Of a stretch of DNA of 64,000 nucleotides, positions 10,761 to 50,750 are shown piece by piece (position 1 is the first letter of the stretch; each line of letters begins with the position of its first letter). Below the pieces are notes generated by a model. It was given only the letters and a program-made list of their open reading frames with translations. It made no database searches and was not told where the DNA came from. The DNA lies in assembly GCF_009765225.1 (NCBI RefSeq), contig NZ_VMSF01000001.1:1302001-1366000 (forward strand), read 5' to 3'. The translations under genes and the position numbers were made by a program. The stretch comes from Leifsonia sp. AG29. Its GTDB lineage: Bacteria; Actinomycetota; Actinomycetes; Actinomycetales; Microbacteriaceae.

Positions 10761-10763
10761 AAT
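10758..10763 (+). promoter_or_regulatory. -10 element for yceD-rpmF
   Basis: TAAAAT overlaps the last codons of the transglutaminase gene and ends 8 nt before the GTG at 10772. It is among the most AT-rich hexamers in the region. No good -35 is seen. A leaderless start for the ribosomal protein operon is inferred. Confidence 0.45.
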
Positions 10764-10771
10764 AGCGGCTC

Positions 10772-11344: not shown

Positions 11345-11346
11345 TC

Positions 11347-11550
11347 ATGGCCGTTCCGAAGCGGAAGCAGTCTCGCGCCAACACCCACGCCCGCCGTTCG
11401 CAGTGGAAGGCACAGGCCCCCACCCTCGTCAAGACGATCGAGGGCGGCAAGGTGACCTACAGCCTCCCGCACCGCGCCAAGGTCGTCGAGGACTCCGCGG
11501 GCACCGCGCTCTTCCTCGAGTACAAGGGCCGCAAGGTCGCCGACATCTGA
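11347..11550 (+). CDS. rpmF: 50S ribosomal protein L32
   Basis: 67 aa, complete. The N-terminal AVPKRKQSRANTHARRSQWK is the L32 signature. The protein has no cysteines, so it is the zinc-free form of L32, common in Actinobacteria. It is tightly coupled to the YceD gene. A perfect 16-bp palindrome (11552-11567) overlaps the end but has no loop or T tract. Confidence 0.96.
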   Translation: MAVPKRKQSRANTHARRSQWKAQAPTLVKTIEGGKVTYSLPHRAKVVEDSAGTALFLEYKGRKVADI

Positions 11551-11578
11551 TCGACCCTCGAGGGTCGGCGAGCACGGC

Positions 11579-14277: not shown

Positions 14278-14302
14278 CTCCCACCCCGGTCGAGAGGCAC
14301 TC

Positions 14303-14331
14303 AGCCTAGGCGACGCGCCGCAGGGTGTGAA
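14303..14331 (-). promoter_or_regulatory. Sigma-70 type promoter of the GNAT gene
   Basis: On the minus strand TTCACA (14331-14326), a 17-bp spacer, and TAGGCT (14308-14303). Spacing and hexamers fit a housekeeping sigma factor; start expected near 14296. Confidence 0.5.
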
Positions 14332-14382
14332 GTGTTGCGCTCGATTTGGTTTCGATCGTGTAAATCTGCCCGCAGGCGTGCG

Positions 14383-14410
14383 TGGCAAAAGCTTGCGATG
14401 CATGTAGTCT
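14383..14410 (+). promoter_or_regulatory. Probable promoter of the branched-chain amino acid uptake operon
   Basis: TGGCAA (14383-14388), 16-bp spacer, TAGTCT (14405-14410). This predicts a 5' leader of about 65 nt ending in a GAGAGGCAGA ribosome site before ATG 14483. No regulator site was identified. Confidence 0.4.
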
Positions 14411-14482
14411 CAGCACACATATTCGTGGTGCGACGTGGCAAACACGCCGCGTTCGACACGAATTCACGTCGAGAGGCAGAAG

Positions 14483-37869: not shown

Positions 37870-38807
37870 TGGCGCTGGCGCGTACCCATGCCGTCGCGCT
37901 CGACGGTGTTCGGGGCCACGTCGTGGAGGTCGAGGCCGACATCTCGGCGGGGCTGCCGGCGTTCGTGCTGATCGGACTCCCGGATGCGGCACTGGGGGAG
38001 TCCCGCAAGCGCGTCGGGTCGGCGGCCGTCAATGCCGGCTGTCCGCTGACGCAGCGGAAGCTCACGGTGAACCTGTCGCCGGCCGCGTTGCCCAAGCAGG
38101 GTTCCGCCTTCGACCTGGCGATCGCCGTGGCCGCCCTGGCGGCGGCCGGCGAGCTCCCTCCGGAGGCGGCGGCCGGCGTGGTGCACCTCGGAGAACTCGG
38201 ACTCGACGGGCGGCTGCGTCCCGTACCGGGGATCCTGCCGTCGGTGGTGGCCGCGCGCGATGCCGGCTTCGCCCGCGTGGTGGTACCCCACGCCAACGCC
38301 CCGGAGGCCCGCCTCGTCGACGGCATCGAGGTGGTCGGCGTCGTCGGACTGCGGGAGACGGCGATCTTGCACGGAGCCCGGCTCGAGCCCGTCGACCTCG
38401 AGCCGGTGCCGTTGCCGGCGGTCGACAGCACCGACGAACCCGAGCCCGACATCGCCGATGTCGCCGGCAATGAGGAGGCGATCGAGGCGCTCGTGACGGC
38501 CGCCGCCGGCGGTCATCATCTCGCCATGGTCGGGCCGCCCGGCGCGGGCAAGACGATGCTCGCCCGTCGCCTCCCGTCCCTGCTTCCCGACTTGACGCCG
38601 CGCGAGGCCCTCGAGGCGACGAGCATCCGGTCGCTGGCCGGACTCGGGGTGGGCGGCTCACTCATCACCCGGCCACCGTACGAGGCGCCGCATCACACCG
38701 CGTCCGCGGTCTCGCTCGTGGGCGGCGGCAGCGGCCGGATCACGCCGGGTGCGATCGTGCGAGCGACGGGAGGTGTCCTCTTCCTCGATGAAGCAAGCAT
38801 CGCCTAG
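37869..38807 (+). pseudogene. comM: comM (YifB) 5' fragment, interrupted by the integrated element
   Basis: 307 native codons of a ComM-like Mg-chelatase family AAA+ protein, then E-A-S-I-A and a TAG supplied by the element. ComM is a helicase-like hexamer aiding branch migration during natural transformation. The N-terminal domain (LARTHAVALDGVRG) and Walker A GPPGAGKTM (about 222) are present; the gene is cut right after the Walker B FLDEA. Sensor residues, arginine finger and C-terminal domain are on the other side of the element. Rejoined at GAAGCA, the two halves give an uninterrupted 512-aa frame, so the damage is only the insertion. Confidence 0.95.
38790..38807. other. attL core and left attP half-arm
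   Basis: GAAGCA core (38790-38795) followed by ATCGCCTAG (38799-38807), which pairs 8 of 9 with CTAGGTGAT (48804-48812) at the other end once the element is circular. The flank CTCGA-T-GAAGCA also partly matches CTCGA-C-GAAGCA at attR. Confidence 0.8.
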
Positions 38808-38914
38808 TCACAACTTGTGCGCGCCCTTATGTTCGATACATTTCGATCATTTGGCGATACTGCGGGCATCGACTCTCGTCGACAGATTCGACGAAACGCC
38901 GAGCGTTCTTCATC

Positions 38915-38944
38915 TTGTGTCGGTGGTGTGCTCTATGGTATAGG
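38915..38944 (+). promoter_or_regulatory. Possible promoter of the first element gene
   Basis: TTGTGT (38915-38920), 18-bp spacer, TATAGG (38939-38944), 33 bp before the strong ribosome site TGAGGAGGTT of the gene at 38978. The 38808-38930 stretch before it is AT-richer than the host and has no ORF. Confidence 0.4.
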
Positions 38945-38977
38945 CGTCCGAAATTAGTCGAACCCTGAGGAGGTTCC

Positions 38978-39571
38978 ATGTCAGATCGGACCCGATGCCC
39001 GAAGTGTCATCGCGCGGTGGATACGCGCGGAGGCGTTCTCGGGATTCACCGGAACGCGGACGGTCGCCAGTGCGAAGGAGGAATGACCACGACCGCCCCA
39101 GCAACACCTAGCACCGTGGCAGGCAACCCTAGGCCCGCCCCGAAGGCACGTCGGCGAACCGTCGTGCCGTCATTCCGAGCGCCTTACCTCTCAGAGGAGG
39201 CGCTATCGCTTTTAAGTGAGGCGAAGCGGGCGGCGATCGAGGAGGACAGGAAGCGCCGCCGCCGCGAGTGGTACGAGAAACAACGGGCCGAGGCCGCCCG
39301 TTCGCTGGAGCACGCTCGCTTCCTCGCGAGCGGCTACCAGACGATCGAGGAGTACAGGCGGGCGCAAGAGCGAAGCGCCCGTGTGCTCGCCAGTATCGAG
39401 GCAGCGAAGGCGAAGTCGAAGGAGCTCTACGAGGCCGAGGCGGAGGCTCGGTGGGAGGCTGAGCGGCATCGCTTCGACGGCACCTTCGAGAAGCCGGAGA
39501 AGCCGAGCGCGCCGTCGAGGCCGGTCGTCTGGCGTGGCGGCTCGCCGGGACTGAACAAGAAGAAGCGCTAG
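38978..39571 (+). CDS. Zinc-knuckle, charged coiled protein of unknown function
   Basis: 197 aa. The N-terminus is a C2HC knuckle: CPKC (9-12), His in LGIHRNADG and Cys in RQCEGG. The rest is highly charged helix (LSEAKRAAIEEDRKRRRREW, then SIEAAKAKSKELYEAEAEAR) with a basic C-terminus. The knuckle has the same pattern as two in the protein at 43799. Strong ribosome site TGAGGAGGTT 5 nt before ATG. First gene inside attL, on the strand opposite most element genes. A DNA- or RNA-binding regulator is possible; no known family recognised. Confidence 0.75.
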   Translation: MSDRTRCPKCHRAVDTRGGVLGIHRNADGRQCEGGMTTTAPATPSTVAGNPRPAPKARRRTVVPSFRAPYLSEEALSLLSEAKRAAIEEDRKRRRREWYEKQRAEAARSLEHARFLASGYQTIEEYRRAQERSARVLASIEAAKAKSKELYEAEAEARWEAERHRFDGTFEKPEKPSAPSRPVVWRGGSPGLNKKKR

Positions 39572-39588
39572 ACGCGGGAGGGGATCGG

Positions 39589-39618
39589 GGACCCGTTCGG
39601 CTTCGGCCGGGCGGGTCC
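39589..39618 (+). terminator. Weak stem-loop after the 38978 gene
   Basis: GGACCCG (39589-39595) pairs with CGGGTCC (39612-39618) around a 16-nt loop that can form a smaller inner hairpin. No T tract. Confidence 0.35.
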
Positions 39619-39669
39619 TCTGCCGTGACCCGTGGAGGGCGAGGAGTTCCAGGGGGAGATCGTCGTCAT

Positions 39670-39873
39670 TCAGCGGGAGACGTCGGCGAGCGCCGCGAGT
39701 AGCTCGGCCCTAACGTCCGCGAATCCGACGATCAGCTCGACGCACTCCGCGTCCGTAGCGCCGCCCTCCTGGGCCTCGACGAGCGCCCAGTAGGCCGCGT
39801 GTGCGCACGACTCCTCCAGCGGCTCCTCGGCCGGGCGCTGGGCGATACGGGCGCGAATCTCGTCGTGTGTCAT
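39670..39873 (-). CDS. Small acidic helical protein, unknown
   Basis: 67 aa from ATG 39873: MTHDEIRARIAQ start, a central CAHAAYWALVEAQEGG, Cys at about 45, then a helical tail. The open frame continues upstream through the tape-measure antisense region, but this ATG is the only sensible short start. No family recognised. It is the last leftward gene before attL and is separated from the tape-measure gene by a terminator. No coding sequence is seen in 39874-40071. Confidence 0.5.
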   Translation of the reverse strand: MTHDEIRARIAQRPAEEPLEESCAHAAYWALVEAQEGGATDAECVELIVGFADVRAELLAALADVSR

Positions 39874-40071
39874 GGCGCCGACGATACCAACGGCGCGCGG
39901 GCCGCGCTTGACCCCCGGAATGGGGCGCCCGGGTGCGAATTCGCGAGATTTCGCGCGACGCGCCGGGGCCTCCGTATAAGGGTTTACGTGGCGCGGATTC
40001 GGAGGCTCCGCGAACGTGTTTAACTTCTCAGGTCGGCGCCGTCGGGGCGCCGGGATCGAAGGAGAAGACTC

Positions 40072-40188
40072 ATGCTTGAAGACGCCGCCCTTGCCGTGAA
40101 CGCCCTGTTTGGCGACACGATCGACGACGCCGAGTTCGCCCGACTCGTTGACCTCGCCGTGACGGCGCTTATCGCCCGTCGAGCGTAG
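40072..40188 (+). CDS. 38-aa small protein
   Basis: ATG at 40072 after GAAGGAGAAG, stop TAG 40186-40188. Sequence begins MLEDAALAVNALFGD and contains DDAEFARLVDLAV; predicted amphipathic helices, acidic. The clear ribosome site and codon pattern support translation. Function unknown. It ends before the shared terminator at 40271. Confidence 0.55.
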   Translation: MLEDAALAVNALFGDTIDDAEFARLVDLAVTALIARRA

Positions 40189-40270
40189 GCGCAGCCCCGG
40201 AGTAGGACTAGTACCCCGGGACCGCGAGGCGAGCCTAGCGCGAGACGCTGCGCGCCCCGCACAACGACGA

Positions 40271-40311
40271 AAGGCCCCCCAGTCGAGCGAGGAGCTCGGC
40301 CGGGGGGCCTT
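40271..40311. terminator. Bidirectional terminator after the tape-measure gene
   Basis: AAGGCCCCCC (40271-40280) pairs perfectly with GGGGGGCCTT (40302-40311) around a 21-nt loop with extra pairing. It serves the leftward tape-measure gene (stop at 40356) and the rightward 38-aa gene. Confidence 0.75.
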
Positions 40312-40355
40312 CGTGCGCGAGGCGAGCGCAGGGGATTTGTCAGAGCAGCACAGCG

Positions 40356-42497
40356 TTACTTCCTGATCGCTTGCTTCAGGCGCTGGGCGGAGCGGCGGAG
40401 CTCCTGCTCTGCCGTGAGTCCCTGCCCGCCGACCTGCGTGTACTCGAAATCGACGTAGGTGTCCCCGCCGCGTCCGGATGCTCCGAAGACGCCGCCCTCG
40501 GCGATGCCGAGAGCCGACGACGTCGGGACGTCCGGGATGGTCGGCTGGAGGACCGCCGAGGCGTCCTCGATCCGTCCGGCCATGTCCTCCAGGCCGAGAG
40601 CGAAGCCCTCGCCCGTGAACCGGCCGACCTCGCGGAAGACTCGCGAGGGCGAGTGAATCCCGAGGATGCCCTTCACGAGATCGACGGCGCCGCCGAAGAG
40701 GCCGCGGATCGTCTTCTCGACCCACTTCCAGGCGTTGTTCACGCCGTCGAGGAAGCCCTGGATCAGGTTCTTTCCGACGTCGAGAAGCCACTGTCCGGCG
40801 CCCGCGAGGACGCCCAGAATCTTCGAGCCGAGGCCGGAGAAGAAGTTGACGATCGAGTTGATCCCGTTCGAGACTCCCGAGACGATCCCGTTCCAGACTC
40901 CGGAGAGGAAGGAGCCGATCGCGTTCCACGTTGCCGACCACGCCGAGCTGATCGCGCCGAGGACGGCGGCGATCGTGCTCTGTACGGCGGCGATCTGCCC
41001 GGCGACGGTCGAGACGATCGCGTTCCAGGCTCCGCTGATGAAGGAGACGATCCCGTTCCAGACCGTCGCGGCGAAGCTCGCGATGTTGTTCCAGGTGTCG
41101 ACGAGGAAGCTCGACACGGCCGCCCAGACGTCCTTGAAGAAGGTCGTCTGCGTTGCTACCCAGATGATCGCGGCGACGAGCGCGGCGACCGCCATAACGA
41201 CGATGCCGATCGGGTTCGCGCTGAGGGCGACGTTCAGCACGGCCTGGATCGCTGCCCAGGCGCCGGTCGCGATCCGGACGATGCCCATAATGAGCTGGTA
41301 GGCCTGCATCGCGATGACGATGCCGCCGATACCCGCGGCGATCGCCGTCAGCCACGGGAGGTTGCCCGTGATCCAGCCAGTGAAGGCGGTCAGGGCCGGG
41401 AGTACGCCGGAAAGGACGCCCGAGAGGAGCTCGACGAACGTCGAGGAGACGGACGTCAGCGGCGGGAGGAGCGTGTTCAGCGCCGCGCTGAGGAGGCCGC
41501 CGACGGCGGTCGCGAGCTGCGCGAGCTGTGGCCCGGCCGCACGGACGACGAGGCTCAGCGGGGAGAAGGCGGAGGCGAGCTGGAGGACCTGCGGGATCAG
41601 ACCGCCGAGCGATCCGGCGCCGGAGCTGAAGCTCTGGAAGAAGCCGGAGACGAACGTCGTCGCGCCGCTGATCCCGTCGGCGACGCCTCCGAGGAAGCCA
41701 GTAATCGCGGGCTTCGCGAAGGTAATCAGGCCCGACAGCGCCGTGACGGCGGAGGCCTGGAGGTTGCCGAGCGCGCCCTCGATCGTCGAGGTCGAGCGGG
41801 CCGCCGAGACGGCGACCGGGTCGAAGCCGAGCTTCAGGATCGCGTCGTTGAATTCCGTCGCGGTGATCTCGCCCTTCGCCATAGCGTCGCGGAAATTGCC
41901 CGTATAGGCGCCCGCTTCGAGGAGGGCTTGCTGGAGCTTTCCGGAGGCGCCGGGGATCGCGTCCGAGAGCTGATTCCAGTTCTCGGTCGTGAGCTTGCCC
42001 TGTCCCGCGGTCTGCGTCAGGACCATGCCGACGGACTTATACGTCTCGGCCGTTCCGCCCGCGATCGCGTTCAGGTTTCCGGCCGCCTCGGCGAGACGGT
42101 CGAAGCCCGGGACGCCGTTGGAGGCGAGCTGGGCCGTAATGTTCTGGATATCCGCGATGCCGTAGACGGTCTTGTTCGCGTAGTCCTGCGTCGACGCCGT
42201 CAGGGCCTTGATCTGACTATCTGCGATCCCGGCGAATTGGAGGGTCGAGCCGAACTTCTGCGTCGCGTCGGACGCCTGGGCGGCCTCGCGGATCAGACCG
42301 CCGAAGCTGACGGTCGCGAGGAGTGCGGCGGCGGGGGCCACGAAGCCCTTTAGGCCGCCGAGGAGGCCGCCGCCGACCTTCTGGCCGCCGTCGCGTCCGA
42401 CCTTCTCGAAGTCGCTTCCGACCTCGCCCGAGAGGGCCTTCGAGAAGTCCTTCGCGGACGGGATGATGGTCAGCGTTGCGTAGCCGACATTGGACAT
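40356..42497 (-). CDS. Phage tail tape measure protein
   Basis: 713 aa from ATG 42497, behind AGGAGG. N-terminus NVGYATLTIIPSAKDF and the TMP-type domain around residues 70-250 (GIADIQNITAQLASNGV, GMVLTQTAGQGKLTTENW), a hydrophobic middle (about 380-480), many Trp-containing helical repeats (WNGIVSFISGAWNAI; WNAIGSFLSGVWNGI), and the frequent C-terminal block GIHSPSRVFREVG. Tape measures set siphophage tail length and help DNA entry. At about 0.15 nm per residue it predicts a tail near 105 nm. It is the only unmistakable virion gene in the element. Confidence 0.92.
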   Translation of the reverse strand: MSNVGYATLTIIPSAKDFSKALSGEVGSDFEKVGRDGGQKVGGGLLGGLKGFVAPAAALLATVSFGGLIREAAQASDATQKFGSTLQFAGIADSQIKALTASTQDYANKTVYGIADIQNITAQLASNGVPGFDRLAEAAGNLNAIAGGTAETYKSVGMVLTQTAGQGKLTTENWNQLSDAIPGASGKLQQALLEAGAYTGNFRDAMAKGEITATEFNDAILKLGFDPVAVSAARSTSTIEGALGNLQASAVTALSGLITFAKPAITGFLGGVADGISGATTFVSGFFQSFSSGAGSLGGLIPQVLQLASAFSPLSLVVRAAGPQLAQLATAVGGLLSAALNTLLPPLTSVSSTFVELLSGVLSGVLPALTAFTGWITGNLPWLTAIAAGIGGIVIAMQAYQLIMGIVRIATGAWAAIQAVLNVALSANPIGIVVMAVAALVAAIIWVATQTTFFKDVWAAVSSFLVDTWNNIASFAATVWNGIVSFISGAWNAIVSTVAGQIAAVQSTIAAVLGAISSAWSATWNAIGSFLSGVWNGIVSGVSNGINSIVNFFSGLGSKILGVLAGAGQWLLDVGKNLIQGFLDGVNNAWKWVEKTIRGLFGGAVDLVKGILGIHSPSRVFREVGRFTGEGFALGLEDMAGRIEDASAVLQPTIPDVPTSSALGIAEGGVFGASGRGGDTYVDFEYTQVGGQGLTAEQELRRSAQRLKQAIRK

Positions 42498-42544
42498 GGG
42501 GCCTCCTACGGGTGCCTCGGCGCCGCTTGGTGGGCGCACGACAA

Positions 42545-42571
42545 AGCCCCGCCGTGCAGTACGGCGGGGCT
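42545..42571 (-). terminator. Intrinsic terminator between the 107-aa gene and the tape-measure gene
   Basis: AGCCCCGCCGT (42545-42555) and ACGGCGGGGCT (42561-42571) form a perfect 11-bp stem with a 5-nt loop; on the minus strand it is followed by TTTG. It should lower tape-measure expression relative to upstream genes. Confidence 0.8.
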
Positions 42572-42585
42572 AGTCGTTGGGTGGG

Positions 42586-42909
42586 TTAGGCGCGGGATCG
42601 CGCGGCAGCTCGACGGGCTGCTCGGTTCATGGGGGTTCGGCTTGCGAGGACGGTTCGGCCGGAGGCCTCTCCTGCCGCCTCGTGGAGCTGGGCGATCTCG
42701 GCGTCCGTCGGTGAGGTCGCCAGGAAGGCGGCGGCCTGCTCAGCGCCGAGGACGATCGCGAGGCCGCGCTTCAGTAGCGCGCGGAGGTCGTCAACGCGGT
42801 TGCCTGTACCGACGGCCGCGAGCTGCGCCACGAGATCAGGGGCGGCGTTGATCGTGTACTGGACGCCGCGGACGGTGGTCGTCGCGGAGTGCTCGAACAG
42901 TGGGGACAT
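42586..42909 (-). CDS. 107-aa protein upstream of the tape measure, unknown
   Basis: 107 aa from ATG 42909 (MSPLFEHSATTTVRGV), after CAGGAGCAACCC. Mostly helical (LVAQLAAVGTGNRVDDLRAL) with an Arg/Ala-rich basic tail. In siphophages the gene before the tape measure is commonly a tail assembly chaperone or tail protein; position is the only support here and no slippery frameshift site was seen. A longer open frame to 43167 overlaps the previous gene and was rejected. Confidence 0.6.
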   Translation of the reverse strand: MSPLFEHSATTTVRGVQYTINAAPDLVAQLAAVGTGNRVDDLRALLKRGLAIVLGAEQAAAFLATSPTDAEIAQLHEAAGEASGRTVLASRTPMNRAARRAAARSRA

Positions 42910-42932
42910 GGGTTGCTCCTGTCTGGATGGGG

Positions 42933-43274
42933 CTAGAAGGGTGCGTCGGGCTCGTCGTCGAGCTCGGGATCGTCGTCGGCGTTTATGGCAGCGAGCGCGG
43001 CCAGCTCTCCGCGGAGGCGCGCCTCGATCTCCGCGCGCTTGACGGCTGGGAGCTCGGCCATGAGCGCTAGAAGGGCGGCGCGAGCCAGACGCCGACGGTC
43101 GCGAGTCTGATCGGCGTTGAGGTCGGCGTAGTCGAGCGCCGAGTCGACGACCGCGCGCGGGGACCATCCGCCGACTGGCCGCTCGGGATGCCAGACGGGA
43201 AGGGCGCCGGAGCGATCTCGGGGCATGACGACGAGGACGCCTCGCTCGGCTGGGGCGGCAGCGGGACGCCTCAC
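42933..43274 (-). CDS. 113-aa acidic-tailed protein, unknown
   Basis: 113 aa when started at GTG 43274, which overlaps the stop of the gene before it (GTGA), implying coupling; an internal ATG at 43226 would give 97 aa. It contains LPVWHPERPVGGWSPRAVVDSALDYADLNADQ (shown in two parts in the protein, about 24-56) then a helical, acidic C-terminus ending PDAPF. No family recognised. Partner of the small-terminase-like protein by position. Confidence 0.6.
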   Translation of the reverse strand: MRRPAAAPAERGVLVVMPRDRSGALPVWHPERPVGGWSPRAVVDSALDYADLNADQTRDRRRLARAALLALMAELPAVKRAEIEARLRGELAALAAINADDDPELDDEPDAPF

Positions 43275-43636
43275 TTCGCGTACCTCGCTTGCGCCGCGCG
43301 GCGGCCTCGCTGCGAGTTGGTCATGGGGCCGGCTGTGGGCGGGACGAGACGGGCGAGGATGCTCGCCGACGCGGTACGGGCAAGTCGAGCCTCCGCGACC
43401 GCGGGATGGACGATCGTCTGTCCCATCGAGCCGAGCGCGACCATGCCCGCGGCGATGCTTACCTCGTCGAGGCGCTCCGCCGAGGAGTGAAGCGCTGCCG
43501 CCTGCTCCAGCGCGCCGAGCTCGGCTCCGGCGAGGTCCGGGCGCTGCTCGATCACGCTCAGGAAGAGGTCGCGAGCTCCGTCGGTCCAGTCGGCCGGGAG
43601 CTCCCAGGCGTCCGCCGTGGTGTGGGTGTCTGTCAT
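43271..43636 (-). CDS. Small terminase (P27-like) candidate
   Basis: 121 aa from ATG 43636 after GGAAAGG. Pattern: an N-terminal polar part, helices around LSVIEQRPDLAGAELGALEQ, then GSMGQTIVHPAVAEARLART (about 69-88) and a basic end SQRGRRAAQARY. The G-Q-x-VHPA-x-x-EARL segment resembles the P27-type TerS proteins of actinophages that recognise the DNA to be packaged. This is recognition by eye; no TerL gene accompanies it. Many satellites carry TerS alone to redirect helper packaging. Confidence 0.5.
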   Translation of the reverse strand: MTDTHTTADAWELPADWTDGARDLFLSVIEQRPDLAGAELGALEQAAALHSSAERLDEVSIAAGMVALGSMGQTIVHPAVAEARLARTASASILARLVPPTAGPMTNSQRGRRAAQARYAK

Positions 43637-43720
43637 GGGTGGGCCTTTCCAAAAAACGGAGCTCTACCGGCAGCCACAGGCAGGCGCTATGCCGAACCGA
43701 TCGGGGAGGGACGGGGGAGA

Positions 43721-43735
43721 GGGGGGTCACCCCCC
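43721..43735. promoter_or_regulatory. 15-bp perfect inverted repeat in the divergent gap
   Basis: GGGGGGT-C-ACCCCCC lies in the 162-bp gap between the rightward zinc-knuckle gene (43799) and the leftward small-terminase-like gene (43636). Placement suggests an operator for one or both; no repressor is identified. Confidence 0.45.
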
Positions 43736-43798
43736 AGGGTCGGCGCCGGTAAGCGCTGGATGGTTGCGCCGATACCGGGTGCTCACGGATCATGAGCT

Positions 43799-44272
43799 AT
43801 GGCTGTCGTCATCAAGTGCCCGACGTGCGGCGCTCAGGTGCGCGTGCTGCCCGAGGGTTTCGTCGAGGGACACCAGGCCGACGGCAAGCCGTGCTCGTTT
43901 ACACGCACGGCGCACTCAGGGACTCGGCCACGGCTCCAGCTCACGGACGCGGACCGGGCGAAGTCGGAGCGACGCAAGGCCGCCCGCGCCGCCGAGCTCG
44001 CCGCCGTGAAGGCGAAGGCCGAGACGCGAGCGAAGAAGCCGCCGAAGCCACCGAAGCCACCGAAGCCGCCCGTCCAGAAAGAAGAGTGCCCGGTCTGCGG
44101 GCGGGTGGTCACCCGGAAGAAGCAAGGCCCCCTGGTGGCTCACACGAAGCCGACCTCGGGCCGGTGGTGCAAGGGCGGCGATACGCCGACGGATGCGCAG
44201 CGGGCGCGGAACGCGAAGCGCCGGAGCGTGTGGACAGTCGGCGCTGGACTGCCCACACTCGGGCGGCGCTAG
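43799..44272 (+). CDS. Double zinc-knuckle basic protein
   Basis: 157 aa, pI clearly basic. Knuckle 1: CPTC (8-11), His in EGHQADG, Cys in KPCSF. A middle part rich in Ala/Lys with a PPKPPKPPKPP linker, then knuckle 2: CPVC, His in VAHTKPTSG, Cys in RWCKGG. The same C-x2-C-...-H-...-C pattern starts the protein at 38978. Probably a nucleic-acid binder. No ribosome site is clear at 43799. It runs opposite to its neighbours; its 3' end overlaps the 168-aa gene by four bases. Confidence 0.7.
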   Translation: MAVVIKCPTCGAQVRVLPEGFVEGHQADGKPCSFTRTAHSGTRPRLQLTDADRAKSERRKAARAAELAAVKAKAETRAKKPPKPPKPPKPPVQKEECPVCGRVVTRKKQGPLVAHTKPTSGRWCKGGDTPTDAQRARNAKRRSVWTVGAGLPTLGRR

Positions 44273-44775
44273 CGCTCGTCGCGCTTCGGCGCTCTCCGTT
44301 TCGCGCGCGGCCGGTGACCGTCGTTGTAGGCGACGCGCGGGCGAGGACCCGACGCGGGCAGCCAGGCGCCGCAGCCGCACGCGCAGCCGACGAGCCAGGC
44401 GGACGACGAGAGCGCCGCCTGGGCCGTGCCCCGCGCAGCGGCGAAAGGCGCTCGGACCTTCGAGGCGACGGCGCGCTTCTGCTTCCCAGCTCGCGCGAGC
44501 TCGGCGGGCGTCGCCGACGGATTCGCGTCCTTCTCGGCGCGGGCCGCGGCGAGGTTGCGCTCTAGGAGGGCGTCGTAGAGGCGAGCCTCCCGGCCCTGAT
44601 CCGAAAGCGCCAGCCACTCGGAAAGGGACAGGTCGCCGAGAATCCAGGCGCCGACGCGGCTCGCCGCCTTGTCGGGGCGCGTCATGTGGCGGAAGCGCCG
44701 GACGCCGTCGCGGCTGTAAGCGACGACCTCCGCGCGCTCGGCTGCGGAGAGGGTGATGTTCGTGTGTGCGTTCAT
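44269..44775 (-). CDS. 168-aa basic protein with C-terminal cysteine cluster
   Basis: 168 aa from ATG 44775. N-terminal helical region (SAAERAEVVAYSRDGVRRF, WILGDLSLSEWLAL), then an Ala-rich stretch and a CACGCG cluster (about 132-137) followed by DGHRPRAKRR. The Cys/His set could bind zinc. No family recognised. No strong ribosome site; it follows the small membrane-protein gene after 84 bases. Confidence 0.55.
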   Translation of the reverse strand: MNAHTNITLSAAERAEVVAYSRDGVRRFRHMTRPDKAASRVGAWILGDLSLSEWLALSDQGREARLYDALLERNLAAARAEKDANPSATPAELARAGKQKRAVASKVRAPFAAARGTAQAALSSSAWLVGCACGCGAWLPASGPRPRVAYNDGHRPRAKRRAPKRDER

Positions 44776-44859
44776 GGGTTGCGGGTGTCCATCCCGCGGC
44801 GCGGCCTGTAGAGCTCGCGCCCGTAGGTGGGCGGCCGGGTGCGGTCCGGCCGGTTAGTG

Positions 44860-45060
44860 TCAGGCGCCGAGGAAGTACTTCCAGGCGGCGAGGAAGACGC
44901 CGACGACGCCGGTCAGGGCGCCGAGAGCGACGAGGACGAGGACGGTCGCGCCGATCGCACGCCCGACGAGGTAGCTCCGGACGCGACGGCCGACGCCACG
45001 CTCGCGAGCGATGATCTCGGCGAAGCGGGCGTCGACGTCGTCCGGGCTCAGAGGTCCCAT
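44860..45060 (-). CDS. Small single-helix membrane protein
   Basis: 66 aa. Polar N-terminal 30 residues (DDVDARFAEIIARERGVG), then one long hydrophobic segment (about 36-60: ATVLVLVALGALTGVVGVFL) and a short positive end. Size and topology would suit a holin-like or other small membrane protein; no evidence beyond that. ATG 45060 overlaps the end of the 39-aa gene in another frame. Confidence 0.55.
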   Translation of the reverse strand: MGPLSPDDVDARFAEIIARERGVGRRVRSYLVGRAIGATVLVLVALGALTGVVGVFLAAWKYFLGA

Positions 45061-45167
45061 TCGTCCAGGAGCGGGAACGGTTCGGCGCCGCCTTCGTACT
45101 CCGTGCCGTCGGCGTTCACGGCGGGGACGTAGAGGGTGCCGTCGATCAGGTTCGGCGTCGAGCTCAC
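45048..45167 (-). CDS. 39-aa protein
   Basis: GTG 45167 overlaps the stop of the upstream gene (GTGA), and the stop overlaps the downstream membrane-protein start by 13 bases. Starts MSSTPNLIDGTLYVPAVNAD and ends PLLDEWDL. The nested overlaps support translation. Acidic, possibly beta-rich; function unknown. Confidence 0.55.
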   Translation of the reverse strand: MSSTPNLIDGTLYVPAVNADGTEYEGGAEPFPLLDEWDL

Positions 45168-45391
45168 CCGCGTACCGCCAGGGCGAGAGCTCGGGCCTCG
45201 GCGAGGTCAGCCCGGGAGGCCTTCTGCTCGGCGATCATGCTCGCGTACAGCGCTTCGGGCTGGACGCCCCGCGCCTCCGCCTTCCGGGTCACGCGTCGTC
45301 GGGTCTGAGCGTCGTTCTCGGCCAGAGTCGCCGGGAAGGGAGCTCGCTCCATGACTCCGTCTACGAGATCGGAGATCGCCTGGCGGTTCAT
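45164..45391 (-). CDS. 75-aa helical protein, unknown
   Basis: 75 aa, ATG 45391 overlapping the upstream stop (ATGA). MNRQAISDLVDGVMERAPFP start, then charged helices (QTRRRVTRKAEARGVQPEAL). No family recognised. Part of a run of four coupled genes. Confidence 0.6.
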   Translation of the reverse strand: MNRQAISDLVDGVMERAPFPATLAENDAQTRRRVTRKAEARGVQPEALYASMIAEQKASRADLAEARALALAVRG

Positions 45392-46173
45392 GCCTTCTCC
45401 TGTCCGGCGAGCGCTTCAACCGCCTTGACGTCGAAGCCGTCGATCATCGCCTCGTAGTAGCTCTCTGCGGTCTGGCGGGTGCCTGTGAGCGGGCCGTAGA
45501 CGCGCCGCTCCCATGGGCGGCCGGGCGAGCCAGCCTTCGCGTAGGCATCCTGGCGAGCAGCCACAGCTTTGCCGAGTTCGGTCCACGCCGCCTTCAGGCG
45601 TTCGTGTGCCTCCAGGGCGACGGGAGCCATGAGGCGCTCCCGTACGGGGCGGAGCTCGGGCTCGTGGGCGGCGTCGTCGAACTTCTTCAGCGCGGCTAGA
45701 GCGCGGGCGGCCTGACGCTCCGCCGCGCGACGGGCGTCCAGTACCTTCAGCCTCGCGTCGTCAACGTCATCGATCCGCACGCCGGGACGGCGCTTCGGCG
45801 AACCGTCCTCGTCCCGTCCCTCGAACAGCGCGATCCTCGCGTTCTCCGCGGCGCTGAGCTGTGCCCGCAACTCGGCGCCCTTGACGTTCTCCGCCTGCCA
45901 TGCCGCGTGAAGTTCGGCGAGCTCCGGGACGGCGCTAACGAGCTCCATCGGCGGCTGCGAGACGGTGGGACGGTAGAAGGCCTGGCCGCCGCCGTGGTTG
46001 TAGCGCGACGAGTCCTGACTCGGCCGGGGCTCGCGGCGCAGGGCTTCGCGCTCGGCCTGCTCGGCCTTGCGCCGCTCGGCGTCGGCCGCGAGCGACTCTC
46101 GCATGGCGGCAGAGATCGAGCGCTCCATCGCGAGAGCTTGCTGGGTGTCGCTCTCGGGTCGAGATTCACTCAT
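45388..46173 (-). CDS. 261-aa coiled-coil protein, unknown
   Basis: 261 aa from ATG 46173 after AAAGGAAG. Long charged helices: SISAAMRESLAADAERRKAE near 18-40, then LAELHAAWQAENVKGAELRA, and a C-terminal part with a conserved-looking WERRVYGPLTG. No cysteine, no signal. Coiled-coil proteins of this size can be scaffolds or portal accessory proteins, but nothing identifies it. First of the coupled run 261-75-39-66 aa. Confidence 0.6.
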   Translation of the reverse strand: MSESRPESDTQQALAMERSISAAMRESLAADAERRKAEQAEREALRREPRPSQDSSRYNHGGGQAFYRPTVSQPPMELVSAVPELAELHAAWQAENVKGAELRAQLSAAENARIALFEGRDEDGSPKRRPGVRIDDVDDARLKVLDARRAAERQAARALAALKKFDDAAHEPELRPVRERLMAPVALEAHERLKAAWTELGKAVAARQDAYAKAGSPGRPWERRVYGPLTGTRQTAESYYEAMIDGFDVKAVEALAGQEKA

Positions 46174-46231
46174 GGGTACTTCCTTTCAAATGGCGCCGGG
46201 CGGGACTGCCTGGCGAGGACTGAGGGAGCGC

Positions 46232-46471
46232 TCAGCGCTCAGGGAGGACGCGGCGGGCCTCGGCGAGGATCGTGTCGAGCTCGCGCTCTGGGGCGCCCTC
46301 GATCACAGCTCGCGTGAGGCGGCGGAGGAGGTCGGCGCCGACACGGCGGAGCTCGGCGTCGGCGGCTCGTGCGGCGGCGGCGCGATGTGCGTCTCGGCAG
46401 AAGCGCGAGTCGATCCGCGATGCCTCGTAGGGCTTGCCGCAGTGGTCGCACGCTCGGGTGAATACGGCCAT
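46232..46471 (-). CDS. 79-aa zinc-ribbon protein
   Basis: 79 aa from ATG 46471 after GAAAGGGGG. CDHC (8-11) with FCRDAH (about 24-29) forms a CxxC...C...H site like those in truncated HNH or excision-factor proteins; the rest is helical (RRVGADLLRRLTRAVIEG). Likely a DNA-binding regulator. Its promoter has a palindrome in the spacer. Confidence 0.6.
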   Translation of the reverse strand: MAVFTRACDHCGKPYEASRIDSRFCRDAHRAAAARAADAELRRVGADLLRRLTRAVIEGAPERELDTILAEARRVLPER

Positions 46472-46483
46472 GACGGCCCCCTT

Positions 46484-46513
46484 TCACTAGGCGAACGTTC
46501 GCGTAGTTCGCAA
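46484..46513 (-). promoter_or_regulatory. Promoter with palindromic operator for the 46471 operon
   Basis: Minus strand: TTGCGA (46513-46508), 18-bp spacer, TAGTGA (46489-46484). The spacer is filled by the perfect 12-bp palindrome GCGAACGTTCGC (46491-46502), with a third GTTCGC half-site at 46506-46511. This is a usual place for a repressor site. It lacks the 4-bp gap of an SOS box. Confidence 0.5.
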
Positions 46514-46521
46514 AAGAGAAG

Positions 46522-46545
46522 CGGCCCGCCGAAGCCGACGGGCCG
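46522..46545 (-). terminator. Intrinsic terminator after the 85-aa gene
   Basis: CGGCCCG (46522-46528) and CGGGCCG (46539-46545) form a 7-bp stem; on the minus strand it is followed by CTTCTCTTTT. It separates the 85-aa gene from the 79-aa operon. Bases 46546-46713 hold no recognisable gene. Confidence 0.6.
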
Positions 46546-46713
46546 AAGTAGAGGGCGCGTGTCCCTGTGAGCCGCTCAGGAGTCGACTCACGCGCGCCCG
46601 ACGCAGACGAACCCCTTCGCCGCGTCGCTCCGCCACTCAGAGGGCAGGAGCTCGGCGCTCAGAACGCGCCGACAGGATGGGCCTTCTGGCCTCACTAGTA
46701 GAGAGGGCCGGGG

Positions 46714-46971
46714 TTACGCGGAAGAGGCCTCCTTTCGGGCCTGATAGGCGGCGGAGTCACAGGCCCGGCAGTAGCGCCGGAGCCCGACTGGATCGCGGGA
46801 GTCGCGGGAGAACGCTCCGAGGGGCTTCCGCTCTCGGCAGCGCTCACAGGTTCGGCCGCTCTCGCCCTGGAGCTGGCGGAGGCGCCGGACCGCCGAGGCG
46901 ACGAGGTCTTCGTCGTACTCGGCGGCCAGGCGTGCGACGCTCTCCTCGGCGGCCGTGAAGGTGGGTTCCAT
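46714..46971 (-). CDS. 85-aa zinc-ribbon protein
   Basis: 85 aa from ATG 46971. Helical N-terminal half (TAAEESVARLAAEYDEDLV), then CERC (42-45) and CRAC (about 68-71) around KPLGAFSRDSRDPVGLRR. Such four-Cys ribbons occur in many small phage proteins and near HNH enzymes, but no HNH residues are seen. Candidate regulator or excision factor. Weak ribosome site. Lies next to the large inverted repeat. Confidence 0.6.
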   Translation of the reverse strand: MEPTFTAAEESVARLAAEYDEDLVASAVRRLRQLQGESGRTCERCRERKPLGAFSRDSRDPVGLRRYCRACDSAAYQARKEASSA

Positions 46972-47043
46972 ATTCTGTGAGAGGGCCAGGAGGCAGAATC
47001 GGCTCGGACGACTTCGCGGGGGCGGGCGCCGCCCTGAAGTGCG

Positions 47044-47153
47044 AAAGGTGACGATGTGACGGAACTTGCGTCACTTTCTATTACCTGTACTAGGAGTCAC
47101 TCACTAGTAGCGGGAATGGAAAGTGACGCAAGTTCCGTCACAACGTCACCTTT
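47044..47153. repeat. Nested 34-bp inverted repeat with six GTGACG motifs
   Basis: Arms 47044-47077 and 47120-47153 are complementary at 33 of 34 positions, with a 42-bp loop. Each arm carries three GTGACG/CGTCAC copies (47048, 47056, 47069; 47123, 47136, 47144). The loop holds a second inverted repeat, TACTAG (47088-47093) / CTAGTA (47104-47109), around GAGTCACTC. It lies between the integrase stop and the 85-aa gene. Candidate origin, packaging site, multi-site operator or structured RNA. Confidence 0.9.
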
Positions 47154-47182
47154 GAGCCCTCCCAGGGGCGTTCGCGGGCCGT

Positions 47183-48790
47183 TTACACGGCTTCGGCGTC
47201 GTCGTAGTCGACTTCGAAGCCGTGATCGGCGTTCCACATCAGGCGCACGCGTTCGCCGTCGAGCGGCGCTCGGGTGCCGTTACGGACGCTCCGCTCGACG
47301 ACGACGCCCGTAATCACCTGTCGCAGGTGGTCCCGGCGAGAGTCCAGATCGTCGCCGAGCTCGGCCCAGACTTCTGCGAGAGTCCGGCCTGTCGGACGAA
47401 GCTCGATCTCGGTTGTCGAGGAAAGCTCGCGGAGCGCCGTCCGTCGGGCCTTCAGCTCGTCGAGCTGGCGGAGCAAGCTCATGCCGTCGGCGCCGTCGCG
47501 CCCCATCGCCGTGGTGACGTCCTGGATCGCCATTGAGACGTCCCTAAGCTGCTGTGCGACGTCCGGCGCGATGACTCGTTCGATCCGCTCCAGCTCAGGG
47601 TGTGATCCTGCCGCGCGCAGGAAGGCCGCCTCGACGTACTCCTCCAGTCGATCGACCCGAACGGTCGCGGGGGCCACGCAGGGCGCAAGTACGTAGCCCT
47701 TCTGGGCGCACCGGAAGAAGAGTTCGTCCTGACCGTTCCGGCTCCGCTTCTGCGCGTAGAGCTTGCCGCCGCACCCGGCGCAGCGGGCGACGTTCGTCAG
47801 CCATGACACGGTTCGTCGCGGCTGCACCCGGCCGACGCGGGGGAGACGGGCCTGGAGCTGGGCGTAGGTGTCGAAGTCGAGGATCGGCTCCCAGCGCTGG
47901 ATCGGGAGCCCAGCCTCGTCGACGACCGTCCGCGTCTCGAACTTCGGGCGACCGTCGGCGCCGAGGACAGGCTGACCGTCCGTGCCTCGGATCGCCTGCT
48001 TCTGCGTTGTCCGGCCGATCAACGTGTCCGATCGCCATAGGTTGCGGACAGTCGTCACGCGCCATGCGCCGCGGTCGAGTCCGTCCATCGGCGCCCCGGC
48101 CTGCCGAGCTCGCCGTGCGGGGCTTTGCGGCGTAGGCACGCCCTCGGCGTCGAGCCAGAGCGTCGCCTTCGTCAGAGTCTCGCCAGCGATAACGCGCTCG
48201 GCAACCTCGCGGACGATGTGCGCTTCGTACTCGTCGATAGCGAGCGCCTTTCCCGGGCCGTGCGGATTTGGTACTGGACGGTAGCCGAAGGGGGCTCGGC
48301 CGCCGAGGAAGCGCTGATCCTCGGGCGCCGTCTTGCTCAGGTGCGCGGCCCGAGCTGCCAGGATTCGAGCTGACGTGTTCTCGGCCTCCATCGCTGCGAC
48401 CTCTGCGAGCACAGACGCGATGATTCTCCAGGCGGGCTGATCTGAGCGAAGGCCGTCCTTCTTCGCGTAGAAGAGCGCCGTCTTCCGCTCGCGCATGACC
48501 TCGATCAGGTCGGCGACCGCGCGAAGGCCCTGGCGGCTCCAGCGGTCGAAGGCCCAGACAAGTAGAGTGTCGGCGGCGCCGCTACGGAGCATGTCGAGCG
48601 CGCGAGTAGCCTCGGCGCGCTCCTTCGTGCCGCTCTTGCCGTCGTCCGTGATGACGTCGACGACGTCCCAGCCTTCGAGCTCGCAGAGTTTCTCCAGGTC
48701 GCGGCGCTGGCGCTCCAGCGAAACGCTCTCCTCGGTCGTGCGGCTGATTCGGCAGTAGAGGACGGCTCGGCGTCGGGCGGGGGTGCTCAT
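47183..48790 (-). CDS. Large serine integrase
   Basis: 535 aa. N-terminal resolvase domain with nucleophile Ser16 in YCRISRTTEESVSLERQ and the Arg-rich WAFDRWSRQGL; the recombinase domain follows (FLGGRAPFGYRPV, about 165); then a zinc ribbon CAGCGGKLYAQK...CAQ...C (about 345-380) and a coiled-coil segment (about 420-465). This is the layout of phage-type large serine recombinases, which insert attP into attB without host factors. ATG 48790 is only 30 bp from the attR core, as usual for such integrases. No separate excision factor is identified; the small zinc proteins are candidates. Confidence 0.95.
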   Translation of the reverse strand: MSTPARRRAVLYCRISRTTEESVSLERQRRDLEKLCELEGWDVVDVITDDGKSGTKERAEATRALDMLRSGAADTLLVWAFDRWSRQGLRAVADLIEVMRERKTALFYAKKDGLRSDQPAWRIIASVLAEVAAMEAENTSARILAARAAHLSKTAPEDQRFLGGRAPFGYRPVPNPHGPGKALAIDEYEAHIVREVAERVIAGETLTKATLWLDAEGVPTPQSPARRARQAGAPMDGLDRGAWRVTTVRNLWRSDTLIGRTTQKQAIRGTDGQPVLGADGRPKFETRTVVDEAGLPIQRWEPILDFDTYAQLQARLPRVGRVQPRRTVSWLTNVARCAGCGGKLYAQKRSRNGQDELFFRCAQKGYVLAPCVAPATVRVDRLEEYVEAAFLRAAGSHPELERIERVIAPDVAQQLRDVSMAIQDVTTAMGRDGADGMSLLRQLDELKARRTALRELSSTTEIELRPTGRTLAEVWAELGDDLDSRRDHLRQVITGVVVERSVRNGTRAPLDGERVRLMWNADHGFEVDYDDAEAV

Positions 48791-48803
48791 GCTCCGAGTG
48801 TAT

Positions 48804-48825
48804 CTAGGTGATACTCGACGAAGCA
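48804..48825. other. attR core and right attP half-arm
   Basis: CTAGGTGAT (48804-48812), seven bases, then core GAAGCA (48820-48825). Joined to the left end the two arms are symmetric about the boundary 48820/48821, predicting GA as the crossover dinucleotide. Confidence 0.75.
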
Positions 48826-49437
48826 GCCGAATTCCCGCCGGCGGTGCTCGACGCCCTGCGGCAGCCGCTCGAGTCGGGCAGCATCACCGTGCACCGGGCC
48901 CGCGGCACCGCGACCTTCCCTGCGCGGTTCCAGCTCGTCCTCGCCTCCAATCCGTGCCCGTGCGGCCGCTGGGGTTCCGCCGACGAGGAGTGCACCTGCA
49001 CGCCGATCGTCCGGCGGCGCTACCTGGCGCGCCTGTCCGGACCGCTGCTCGACCGGGTGGATGTGCGTCTCACCGTTCGCCGGCTCGGAATCGGAGCGCT
49101 CCGCTCGGCGGCCGACCGGCCCGCCGGCCGCACCAGCGCCGAACTCCGCGAGCGTGTGCTCCAGGCTCGCCAGGCCGCCGCGGAGCGTCTCGCGACCACG
49201 CCCTGGTCCAGGAATTCGGAGGTCGCCGGGACGTGGCTGCGGTCCGGGGATCACCGGTTGGGGTCCGCAGTGCTGGCGCCGATCGACCGGGCGCTCGACC
49301 GAGGCGGCATCACCATGCGCGGCTACGACCGGACCCTCCGCCTCGCGTGGACGCTCGCCGACCTCGACGGGGTGTCGAGCCCCGGAATCGACCACGTCGG
49401 CCGAGCCCTGTTCCTCCGTCGGGGGATCGGCGCATGA
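48808..49437 (+). pseudogene. comM: comM 3' fragment
   Basis: Native comM resumes at 48820 (EAAEFPPAVLDALRQPLE) with the rest of the AAA+ domain (LVLASNPCPCG) and the C-terminal Mg-chelatase domain, ending at 49437. The element supplies an in-frame GTG at 48808, so a 209-aa product starting M-I-L-D-E-A is possible, but without a ribosome site or Walker A. Its stop overlaps the dprA ATG (ATGA). Confidence 0.93.
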
Positions 49438-50750
49438 GCGGGGCGTTCCTCGGGGTCCCGCACGACGAGATGCGGCGAGCGCTCGCCCGGGTCACCGCGC
49501 CGACCGACCCGGAGCCCGGGTCGGACGACGCCGTGCTGGACGTCTTCTCCGACGCTCACCAGGAGGAGATCGAGGAGGTGTTCGCCCGGGTGGCGCTGGC
49601 GACCTGCGTCGAGCCCGGCGACGCCGACGCGGGAGGTCTCGTCGCGGCCGTGGGTGCGCGCACGGCCCTCCAGGCGCTGGTGGAGGGGTGGGATCCAGAG
49701 CGGACTCTCCGTTCCGGTGACGAGCCGTCGCACGGCAGAGGGCGCGCCCGGCTCGATGCGGCGCTCGCGCGGTGGAGACCCCGGCTCACCTCTGGCGCGC
49801 CGTTCCGTGCTCTGGAGTCCGCCGCGGCGCTCGGAGCGTCGCTCCTCCATCCGGCGTCCCGGCACTGGCCTGACCGGCTCTCCTCGCTGGGGCCGGGCGG
49901 CCCCCTCCTGCTCTGGGTGCGGGGAGACGCCCGGCGGCTCGTCGGTCTCGAACGGTCCCTGTCCGTGGTCGGGGCACGGGCCGCGACCGGCTACGGCGAG
50001 CATGTCGCCCTCGAATCCGCAGCCGCGCTGAGTGACCTCGGGTTCGCCATCGTTTCCGGCGGCGCGTACGGGATCGACGGCTGCGCACATCGAGCGACCC
50101 TCGCCAGCGGCGGTGTGACCGTCGCCGTCCTGGCAGGCGGAGTCGACCGCCTCTACCCGGCCGGGCACTCCGAGCTGCTCCGCCGGATCGCCGACGAGGG
50201 GGTGCTGCTCGCGGAGTCGCCGTGCGGATCGACACCCACCCGCTGGAGATTCCTCATGCGCAACAGGATCATCGCCGCGCTGAGCGGCGCGACCGTCGTC
50301 ATCGAGGCGGGTGCCCGATCGGGATCGCTCAACACGGCCGGCCACGCCGCAGAACTCGGGCGACCCCTGGGGGCCGTGCCCGGTGCGATCACGTCGCCGT
50401 CCTCGGCAGGCTGCCACCGGCTCATCCGCGAGTACGCGGCCGTCTGCGTGACCACGCCGCAGGAGATGGCCGAGCTCGCCGGTCCGGTGGGCAGCCTCCC
50501 TCCGGAGAACCCGCCCGACGACGGCGCTGCCTCATCGAGCGAGGCGAGCGGCTACGAATTCGGCTCGCCGCAGCACCGGGTGCTGCTCGAACTGACGACA
50601 CGCCGACCGCGCACAGCCGACGAGCTCGTGGCCCGCACCGGCCTGCCGTTCGCGGTGGTCGCCTCCACCCTCGGCCGGCTCGACGCCGACGGGCAAGCGG
50701 TGGAGGGGAGCCGCGGCTGGGTCCTTCCCGCAAGGGCCCGCACCGCGTGA
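49434..50750 (+). CDS. dprA: DNA processing protein DprA
   Basis: 438 aa, longer than the usual 300-380 owing to an N-terminal stretch of about 110 residues. Rossmann-like core with SGGAYGIDGCAHRATLASGG (about 208-227), RNRIIAALSGATVVIEAG (about 275-292) and a C-terminal winged helix (HRVLLELTTRRPRTADELV). DprA loads RecA on incoming single-stranded DNA. It is translationally coupled to comM and now lies behind the inserted element, which may reduce its expression. Confidence 0.94.
   Translation: MSGAFLGVPHDEMRRALARVTAPTDPEPGSDDAVLDVFSDAHQEEIEEVFARVALATCVEPGDADAGGLVAAVGARTALQALVEGWDPERTLRSGDEPSHGRGRARLDAALARWRPRLTSGAPFRALESAAALGASLLHPASRHWPDRLSSLGPGGPLLLWVRGDARRLVGLERSLSVVGARAATGYGEHVALESAAALSDLGFAIVSGGAYGIDGCAHRATLASGGVTVAVLAGGVDRLYPAGHSELLRRIADEGVLLAESPCGSTPTRWRFLMRNRIIAALSGATVVIEAGARSGSLNTAGHAAELGRPLGAVPGAITSPSSAGCHRLIREYAAVCVTTPQEMAELAGPVGSLPPENPPDDGAASSSEASGYEFGSPQHRVLLELTTRRPRTADELVARTGLPFAVVASTLGRLDADGQAVEGSRGWVLPARARTA

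Follow-up and report, generated by a model that had tools for sequence, protein, structure and literature searches.

A putative phage satellite inserted in comM of Leifsonia sp. AG29 carries a tape measure gene in an exchangeable cassette

We analyzed a 64,000-nt stretch of the genome of Leifsonia sp. AG29 (contig NZ_VMSF01000001.1, positions 1,302,001 to 1,366,000; hereafter the window), in which an element spanning ~38,790-48,825 is inserted in comM. We read this element, with a probability of roughly 60%, as an integrated phage satellite of the type that carries a terminase small subunit (TerS), whose own tail assembly chaperone (TAC) and tape measure protein (TMP) would replace those of a helper in a chimeric siphophage tail. 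Two findings support the satellite reading: a sister element occupies this very site in another species, and backbone proteins are shared with five more relatives. A preliminary description, made from the sequence letters, had already proposed an element with an integrase, a TerS-like protein and a 713-aa TMP at these positions, which the split of comM and the Pfam and PHROGs scans confirmed; the TAC-like gene at 42,586-42,909 was not listed there.

The ends of the element are sharply defined by the breakpoints of comM, whose left part extends from 37,869 to ~38,795 and whose right part resumes at ~48,814. This junction is intact in 26 of 27 other genomes of the genus and occupied by the sister element in the remaining one. 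The sequence CTCGAYGAAGCA is common to both ends (38,784-38,795 and 48,814-48,825), and the element-side arms ATCGCCTAG (38,799-38,807) and CTAGGTGAT (48,804-48,812), compared by eye, are inverted copies of each other at eight of nine bases, as expected for a putative serine-integrase attP. A site-specific integrase and a defined attachment site, both features of satellites, are therefore present (Table 1).

Sixteen genes were predicted between these ends. Starting from the integrase end, they encode the integrase, J, I, H, G, F2, F, E, a zinc protein on the other strand, the TerS-like protein, C, the TAC-like protein, the TMP, a 38-aa open reading frame (ORF), B, and a 197-aa protein. This list keeps C, which is conserved in the sister, over a 47-aa opposite-strand ORF preferred by the gene caller. 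The PHROGs scan covered all 16 predicted proteins, leaving out the 47-aa ORF, and the Pfam scan 10 of them; the integrase and the TMP were matched strongly, the TerS- and TAC-like proteins weakly.

The TMP reading frame is intact, and its product aligns nearly full length to siphophage TMPs. It was matched by 2284 of 50,697 phage records, the best-scoring phages among the matches listed being mostly those of Microbacterium, Curtobacterium, and Arthrobacter. A match to one PHROG named endolysin (6.4e-43) also occurs but is outscored by those to two tape measure families. The N-terminus is of the FlameThrower type (66.7% identity over 98% of a 246-aa query), and the C-terminal 100 aa are of the GardenState type (43%). 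Compared with the Arthrobacter phages Maureen, VroomVroom, Snek, and Sue2, residues 1-240 are 46-76% identical, residues 361-480 15-21%, residues 481-660 28-50%, and residues 661-713 18-22%, these last residues reaching 60% with GardenState and 52% with Floof. Such a pattern, with both ends conserved and the middle variable, is what a functional ruler of siphophage tails would be expected to show. The protein is shorter than its counterparts in nine of the ten phages compared (664-973 aa), that of Rasovi being shorter still. By the rule of 0.15 nm per residue, its 713 aa would set a tail length of ~107 nm.

Identification of the TAC-like protein, a candidate of the gpG type, is also supported by the position of its gene just before that of the TMP. 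A phage TAC profile matched it at 1.9e-6 among 16 proteins (15 of the element and one of the relative L131, described below); its predicted structure is of low confidence (predicted local distance difference test, pLDDT, 65.5). As for the TerS-like protein, only the TerS of GardenState and IAmGroot matched it among the 50,697 phage records, at 4e-3. Conversely, a satellite TerS profile retrieved the GardenState TerS at 3.7e-22 among 25,885 six-frame ORFs and, at 4.7e-17, the TerS of a prophage region (L022), located directly upstream of a match resembling the terminase large subunit (TerL). GardenState is the best phage match of both the TerS and the C-terminal 100 aa of the TMP. An own TMP and a likely TAC, encoded in a slot that holds a different gene in a close sister element (described below), suggest that the element may rebuild or sabotage the tail of its helper phage.

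Searching PHROGs with all 16 proteins revealed no capsid, portal, TerL, or replication family. Similarly, six-frame tblastn with the head and packaging proteins of eight phages, and the lysis proteins of six of these, yielded nothing convincing for heads, packaging motor, or lysis. It did match the TMP, TerS, and TAC; the other matches, to major capsid protein, stopper, and TerS, scored 0.012-0.10, the weak capsid ones falling opposite the TMP gene. Tube, tip, or other tail genes were not recognized in the element by either approach, nor was a helix-turn-helix repressor family in the Pfam and PHROGs scans. In these searches, the element thus lacks a complete gene complement for heads, packaging, and lysis, and contains a TerS with no TerL match in the window. 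It also combines adjacent TMP and TAC genes, the former match strong and the latter weaker, with no match to a tube gene, as a mode of action like that of the Vibrio phage-inducible chromosomal island-like elements (PLEs) would predict. The lack of head, packaging-motor, and lysis genes stated in the preliminary description was upheld, and the profile search it proposed for capsid, portal, and TerL homologs returned none. Its statement on replication genes stood as regards PHROGs replication families and is qualified by one weak hint, a match of protein I to a primase family (0.031).

The sister element, L117, occupies the same comM site in another species of the genus (genome G411). The proteins that both elements encode range in identity from 37% (E) to 93% (TerS; Table 1), and J, the 197-aa protein, the zinc protein, the TAC, and the TMP have no significant match in L117. 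Alignment with blastn delimited common blocks at 39,683-39,905, 40,238-40,341, 43,002-43,724, 44,353-44,397, 44,735-46,722, 46,979-47,035, and 47,207-49,445, the last of which runs into comM. The slot that holds TAC and TMP in the window lies between the second and the third of them and is filled in L117 by a gene for a 439-aa AAA-type ATPase (AAA_16 2.7e-7, just under the Pfam cut-off). By this alignment, TAC-TMP forms a cassette with sharp boundaries, in whose place the sister has another gene. Both elements also differ over most of 43,725-44,734 and at the left end, where two L117 ORFs of 204-205 aa were left out of the family searches.

Five further elements, found via TerS or H, reside in other genera: L020 (genome G373), L021 (G195), L084 (G288), L085 (G273), and L131 (G232). 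Each has at least three backbone proteins in common with the window element. Profiles matched H and I in all seven elements, E in six, and the TerS-like protein in five, with no TerS profile match in L085 and L131. Every member was recovered by profiles built without it, the weakest values being those of L021 (H 4e-4, I 1.7e-4), L085 (I 9.5e-4), and L084 (TerS 0.0042); the ranks in this leave-one-out analysis count L020 twice, since L118 repeats it. L021, with no E and missed by the first H profile, is the weakest member. The search for the same gene set in other Microbacteriaceae, called for in the preliminary description, gave H profile matches in 5 of 398 drawn genomes, the window's own included, and this family of seven. 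Among 337 genomes of the order, the H profile matched only the own genome, and searches of IMG/VR with H, the integrase, TerS, and the L117 integrase, scans that rely on short peptides, found nothing. Four genomes (G104, G245, G355, and G390) were discarded as H relatives, their single-sequence matches (3e-4 to 6e-4) being lost with the H profile. TerS matched in 16 other genomes; the 20-kb regions examined for five of them comprised the family members L020 and L021, the prophage L022, and two other elements (L023 and L024).

By translations read for this purpose, the relatives are inserted in dprA (L084), a cpaF-like gene (L021), a tad pilus locus (L131), and a thiamin-binding-like gene (L020). 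Their cargo includes a type II restriction-modification system in L021, AbiJ-type/PDC-S32 and a nuclease in L020, and PDC-S59 in L085, and defense cargo sits integrase-distal to TerS or E. Two cargo ORFs of L084 were searched, with no defense family better than 0.0045; a small protein of its cargo region (5001-5273) reads by eye like Cas2/VapD. Given the sister and the cargo differences among the relatives, the seven elements are, on gene content, a family of putative satellites with exchangeable cargo.

We also surveyed the relatives for head genes. No TerL, portal, or capsid was detected in the six of them by tblastn with the eight phages, a weak test that misses heads in many TMP-bearing contigs. 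Within bounds that are estimates, their ORFs of at least 400 aa are limited to those for integrases, the ATPase, PDC-S59, a methyltransferase, and the L131 TMP. No capsid, portal, or terminase PHROG was matched by ten ORFs of 206-446 aa, a subset that does not take in every small one. Outside the family, H and E occurred in no retrieved locus >6 kb. Likewise, 54 TMP loci (11 from genomes, 41 from IMG/VR, and 2 from IMG/VR for the L131 TMP) gave no profile match to H, E, I, TerS, or protein K, an additional protein of three relatives, at E 0.01. Many of these 54 loci have no recognized head gene, the eight reference phages being distant or the contigs short. Five TMP regions of other genomes (L141-L145) were classified in part, and the locus L149 looks phage-like by eye. 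Protein K (299-361 aa) lies between I and H in L085 (7966-8865), L021 (12971-14056), and L131 (10380-11465); it has no clear family match (best PHROG 0.023) and is possibly a replication protein.

TMP genes are carried by two of the seven elements, that of the window and L131, and tblastn with eight phage TMPs located none in the other five. The L131 TMP (571 aa) matches phrog_58 at 4.1e-25 and has no Pfam match; its best phage matches are of the Arthrobacter Pterodactyl type (34%). Its initial 72 residues are 51% identical to the window TMP and a stretch farther on 30%, and both were probably acquired separately. The L131 ORF in the TAC position has neither a family match nor a phage homolog. 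L131 further encodes a tail-fiber-like protein of 236 aa that contains an S74 chaperone domain and shares 31% identity with minor tail proteins of Microbacterium phages.

In the mechanism that we favor, a helper siphophage (FlameThrower-, Liebe-, or GardenState-like) would grow in the cell and the satellite would excise. The helper would supply TerL, capsid, tube, tip, and fibers, while the satellite TerS would direct the packaging machinery of the helper, TerL and capsids alike, toward satellite DNA. TAC and TMP of the satellite would take the place of those of the helper, nucleating the tail on the satellite ruler, and the resulting particle would be a chimera in which helper tube, tip, and fibers surround the satellite TMP. 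Several observations weigh against such a scheme. The TAC match is weak, with the phage TAC profile giving 0.022 among 25,885 ORFs, and the 50,697 phage records contain no homolog of the TAC-like protein. The host genome yielded no PF03354 or GardenState-like TerL, these being the only TerL types searched, in one search without positive control; a helper would hence come from outside or be of another type. Five of the seven elements have no TMP, which is therefore not essential to the family. Excision, packaging, expression, and helper dependence are all predictions from gene content. Finally, the cassette sits in the slot of the sister ATPase, and relatives carry defense genes, which keeps a purely anti-phage role in play, if an unlikely one.

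In such a role, TAC-TMP would be defense cargo that titrates the tube protein or chaperone of the helper, or caps tails at the wrong length, and need not enter satellite particles; we would be mildly surprised if this were the case. Interference with tail assembly is a described defense strategy (PMC11364771 and PMC10884400). Moreover, known or candidate defense cargo is found in L021 (type II restriction-modification), L020 (PDC-S32/AbiJ-like), and L085 (PDC-S59), and the AAA-type ATPase gene of L117 fills exactly the TAC-TMP slot. However, the TMP travels with a TAC-like or TAC-position gene, and in L131 also with a fiber-like gene, which is beyond the needs of a decoy. The TMP ends are conserved with phages, the same gene pair serves assembly in PLEs, and the L117 ATPase has no strong defense-family match (best 0.0054).

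Far less probable is a reduced prophage, that is, a siphophage remnant left with integrase, TerS, TAC, and TMP by chance, the alternative that the preliminary description had kept. The order TerS, TAC, TMP is indeed that of the siphophages Maureen and GardenState, a single match to backbone protein I (8.3e-9) lies in the prophage region L022, and the head-gene test on the relatives is weak. Nevertheless, the sister combines a 93% identical TerS and the same backbone with a different slot gene, no head gene figures among the long or mid-sized ORFs surveyed in the relatives, and H and E were confined to the seven elements among the loci examined. In size and build, the relatives found resemble the small window element and not full-size prophages of the same gene order with gaps at varying places, and the cassette is sharply bounded, all of which speaks against this alternative. 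We give scarcely any credence to the idea that the TMP, rather than being a tail ruler, acts as an effector that is secreted or injected, or belongs to a tailocin or injection device. TMP-related effectors of contractile injection systems do exist (PMC13277306), but no tube, tip, or other tail gene was recognized in the element, and the TMP aligns along nearly its whole length to siphophage TMPs.

In a broader reading, the family may use tail remodeling as an interchangeable weapon: the TAC-TMP cassette, accompanied in L131 by a fiber-like gene, lies in a region of the element that is given over to different cargo, immune genes among it, in the relatives, and would both build satellite tails and starve the helper, in a tail piracy independent of PLEs that possibly arose repeatedly. 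We advance this proposal tentatively, at somewhat less than even odds. Two different TMPs on an unrelated-looking Gram-positive backbone would mean, if true, that tail piracy recurs beyond PLEs. The sister pair, differing in the TAC-TMP slot, offers a natural comparison for the benefit of the cassette, and H, I, and E make up a marker set for locating satellites in Microbacteriaceae. Openly licensed PubMed Central (PMC) papers yielded no paper on phage satellites or prophages with Microbacterium, and no description of this actinobacterial backbone family or of the cassette exchange. These two are what we take to be new here, the presence of TMP genes in satellites being already known from PLEs and putative capsid-forming phage-inducible chromosomal islands (cf-PICIs).

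Table 1. Genes, attachment sites, and other features of the comM element, in window positions; percentages are identities to the sister element L117 unless stated otherwise
Feature	Position	Strand	Evidence or remark
Left attachment site, comM left half + arm ATCGCCTAG	38784..38807	.	comM break; same half-site in sister L117
197-aa protein, CPxC...H...C zinc motif by eye, end slot	38978..39571	+	No significant match in L117
Backbone protein B, 67 aa	39670..39873	-	64%
38-aa ORF	40072..40188	+	Like L084 ORF (4294-4437), eye comparison only
Conserved 104-bp block, edge of exchanged slot	40238..40341	.	85% identical in sister
Cargo slot exchanged between the sisters, with TAC-TMP in the window and the AAA-type ATPase gene in L117 (4386-6595)	40342..43001	-	blastn blocks stop at both edges
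TMP, 713 aa	40356..42497	-	Pfam TMP_3 3.4e-33; phrog_58 1.1e-75
TAC-like protein (gpG type), 107 aa	42586..42909	-	phrog_10551 5.4e-4
Backbone protein C, 97 aa	42933..43226	-	66%
TerS-like protein, 121 aa	43271..43636	-	phrog_1496 1.3e-4; 93%; 65-67% to L020
157-aa protein, two zinc motifs by eye; second variable slot	43799..44272	+	Pfam/PHROGs scans, sister comparison
Backbone protein E, Cys-containing C-terminus	44269..44775	-	37%; in 6/7 elements; leave-one-out E 2e-23 to 5e-16
Protein F, 66 aa, one hydrophobic stretch	44860..45060	-	89%
Protein F2, 39 aa	45048..45167	-	84%
Protein G, 75 aa	45164..45391	-	77% over 60 aa
Backbone protein H, 261 aa	45388..46173	-	65%; in 7/7 elements; leave-one-out E 2e-52 to 4e-4
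Backbone protein I, 79 aa, CxxC...C...H zinc motif by eye	46232..46471	-	63%; in 7/7 elements; leave-one-out E 3e-16 to 1e-3
One copy of repeat present 5x in sister L117 between I and integrase	46691..46713	+	Repeat comparison
Zinc protein J, 85 aa	46714..46971	-	Matches Lar-like, endonuclease VII families; not found in sister
50-nt inverted repeat, 90% complementary, beside integrase	47044..47153	.	Candidate operator or origin
Large serine integrase, 535 aa	47183..48790	-	Pfam Resolvase/Recombinase/Zn_ribbon; phrog_95 1.1e-85; 89%
Right attachment site, arm CTAGGTGAT + comM right half	48804..48825	.	comM resumes

Some further features accompany these genes. A CPxC...H...G..C zinc motif, recognized by eye, recurs in three copies across two otherwise unrelated proteins of the element (38978-39571 and 43799-44272), the former of which has no Pfam match over the cut-off and no PHROG match. 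In the region of L117 that corresponds to the inverted repeat of the window (47044-47153), a different repeat of 21 nt occurs five times, and a single copy of it persists in the window (46691-46713). Terminators and operators had also been claimed for the element. A terminator scan counted six, against 4.2 in shuffled sequences, and so gave no excess; as to operators, the one strong inverted repeat beside the integrase could serve as such. Rfam returned no match at the gathering score. Two TerS-bearing regions outside the family caught our attention as well. L023 (~5216-14515) contains a different satellite-like element with a TerS-like gene (9632-10003) and, named by eye, a tyrosine-integrase-like gene (13403-14515), repressor-like and excisionase-like ORFs, and a 533-aa tail-spike-like protein (7732-9333); it has no TerL match to the reference phages. 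L024 (~3500-10300) carries a serine integrase near dprA/xerC-like genes, a TerS-like ORF (profile 5.7e-18), and a RepA-like ORF (by eye).

The element can be set against satellites of several kinds. Phage-inducible chromosomal islands (PICIs) of the pac type and Staphylococcus aureus pathogenicity islands (SaPIs) are small integrated elements with cargo genes, SaPIs being defined by a tyrosine integrase and an Stl-type repressor; the integrase of PLEs, as that of our element, is a large serine recombinase. Unlike pac-type PICIs and SaPIs, the element has this large serine integrase, its own TMP and TAC-like genes, and no recognized repressor family. It does have in common with them, by description, a TerS without TerL, the use of TerS by PICIs being reported in PMC10690885. 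The cf-PICIs depend on helper tails, and some putative ones carry tmp genes (PMC12987554, Extended Data Fig. 10 legend), which brings them close to the element; they encode, however, capsid, portal, and both terminase subunits (PMC10690885), whereas PHROGs and tblastn recognized only TerS here. The Mulch and Flayer satellites of Streptomyces phages are likewise actinobacterial, but encode TerL, portal, and capsid, with a tyrosine integrase in MulchRoom and no lysogeny module in MiniFlayer; the term tape measure does not appear in the accessible text on them (PMC10690885).

The closest parallel is provided by the PLEs of Vibrio cholerae, as portrayed in PMC12987554. PLE1, PLE4, and PLE11 are integrated satellites with their own TMP and TAC that depend on the helper for most of the tail. 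The likeness is one of description, not of sequence comparison, and there are differences: the PLE host is Gram-negative and its helper ICP1 contractile; tmp and tac are reported as conserved in all PLEs, as opposed to a TMP in two of the seven elements here; and PLE11 also encodes a baseplate hub (PMC12987554). In that work, experiments published in 2026 placed the satellite TMP in the tails of virions, and loss of the TMP cut transduction by 96-99.9%. PLE11, with a TMP differing by 95 aa, has tails ~10 nm shorter. According to the authors of that work, no satellite family before PLEs was known to build chimeric tails, and they leave the generality of this strategy open (PMC12987554). The claim in the preliminary description that an own TMP was foreign to described satellites is accordingly out of date: with PLEs, and with putative tmp genes in some cf-PICIs, a satellite-borne TMP is no longer unprecedented (PMC12987554).

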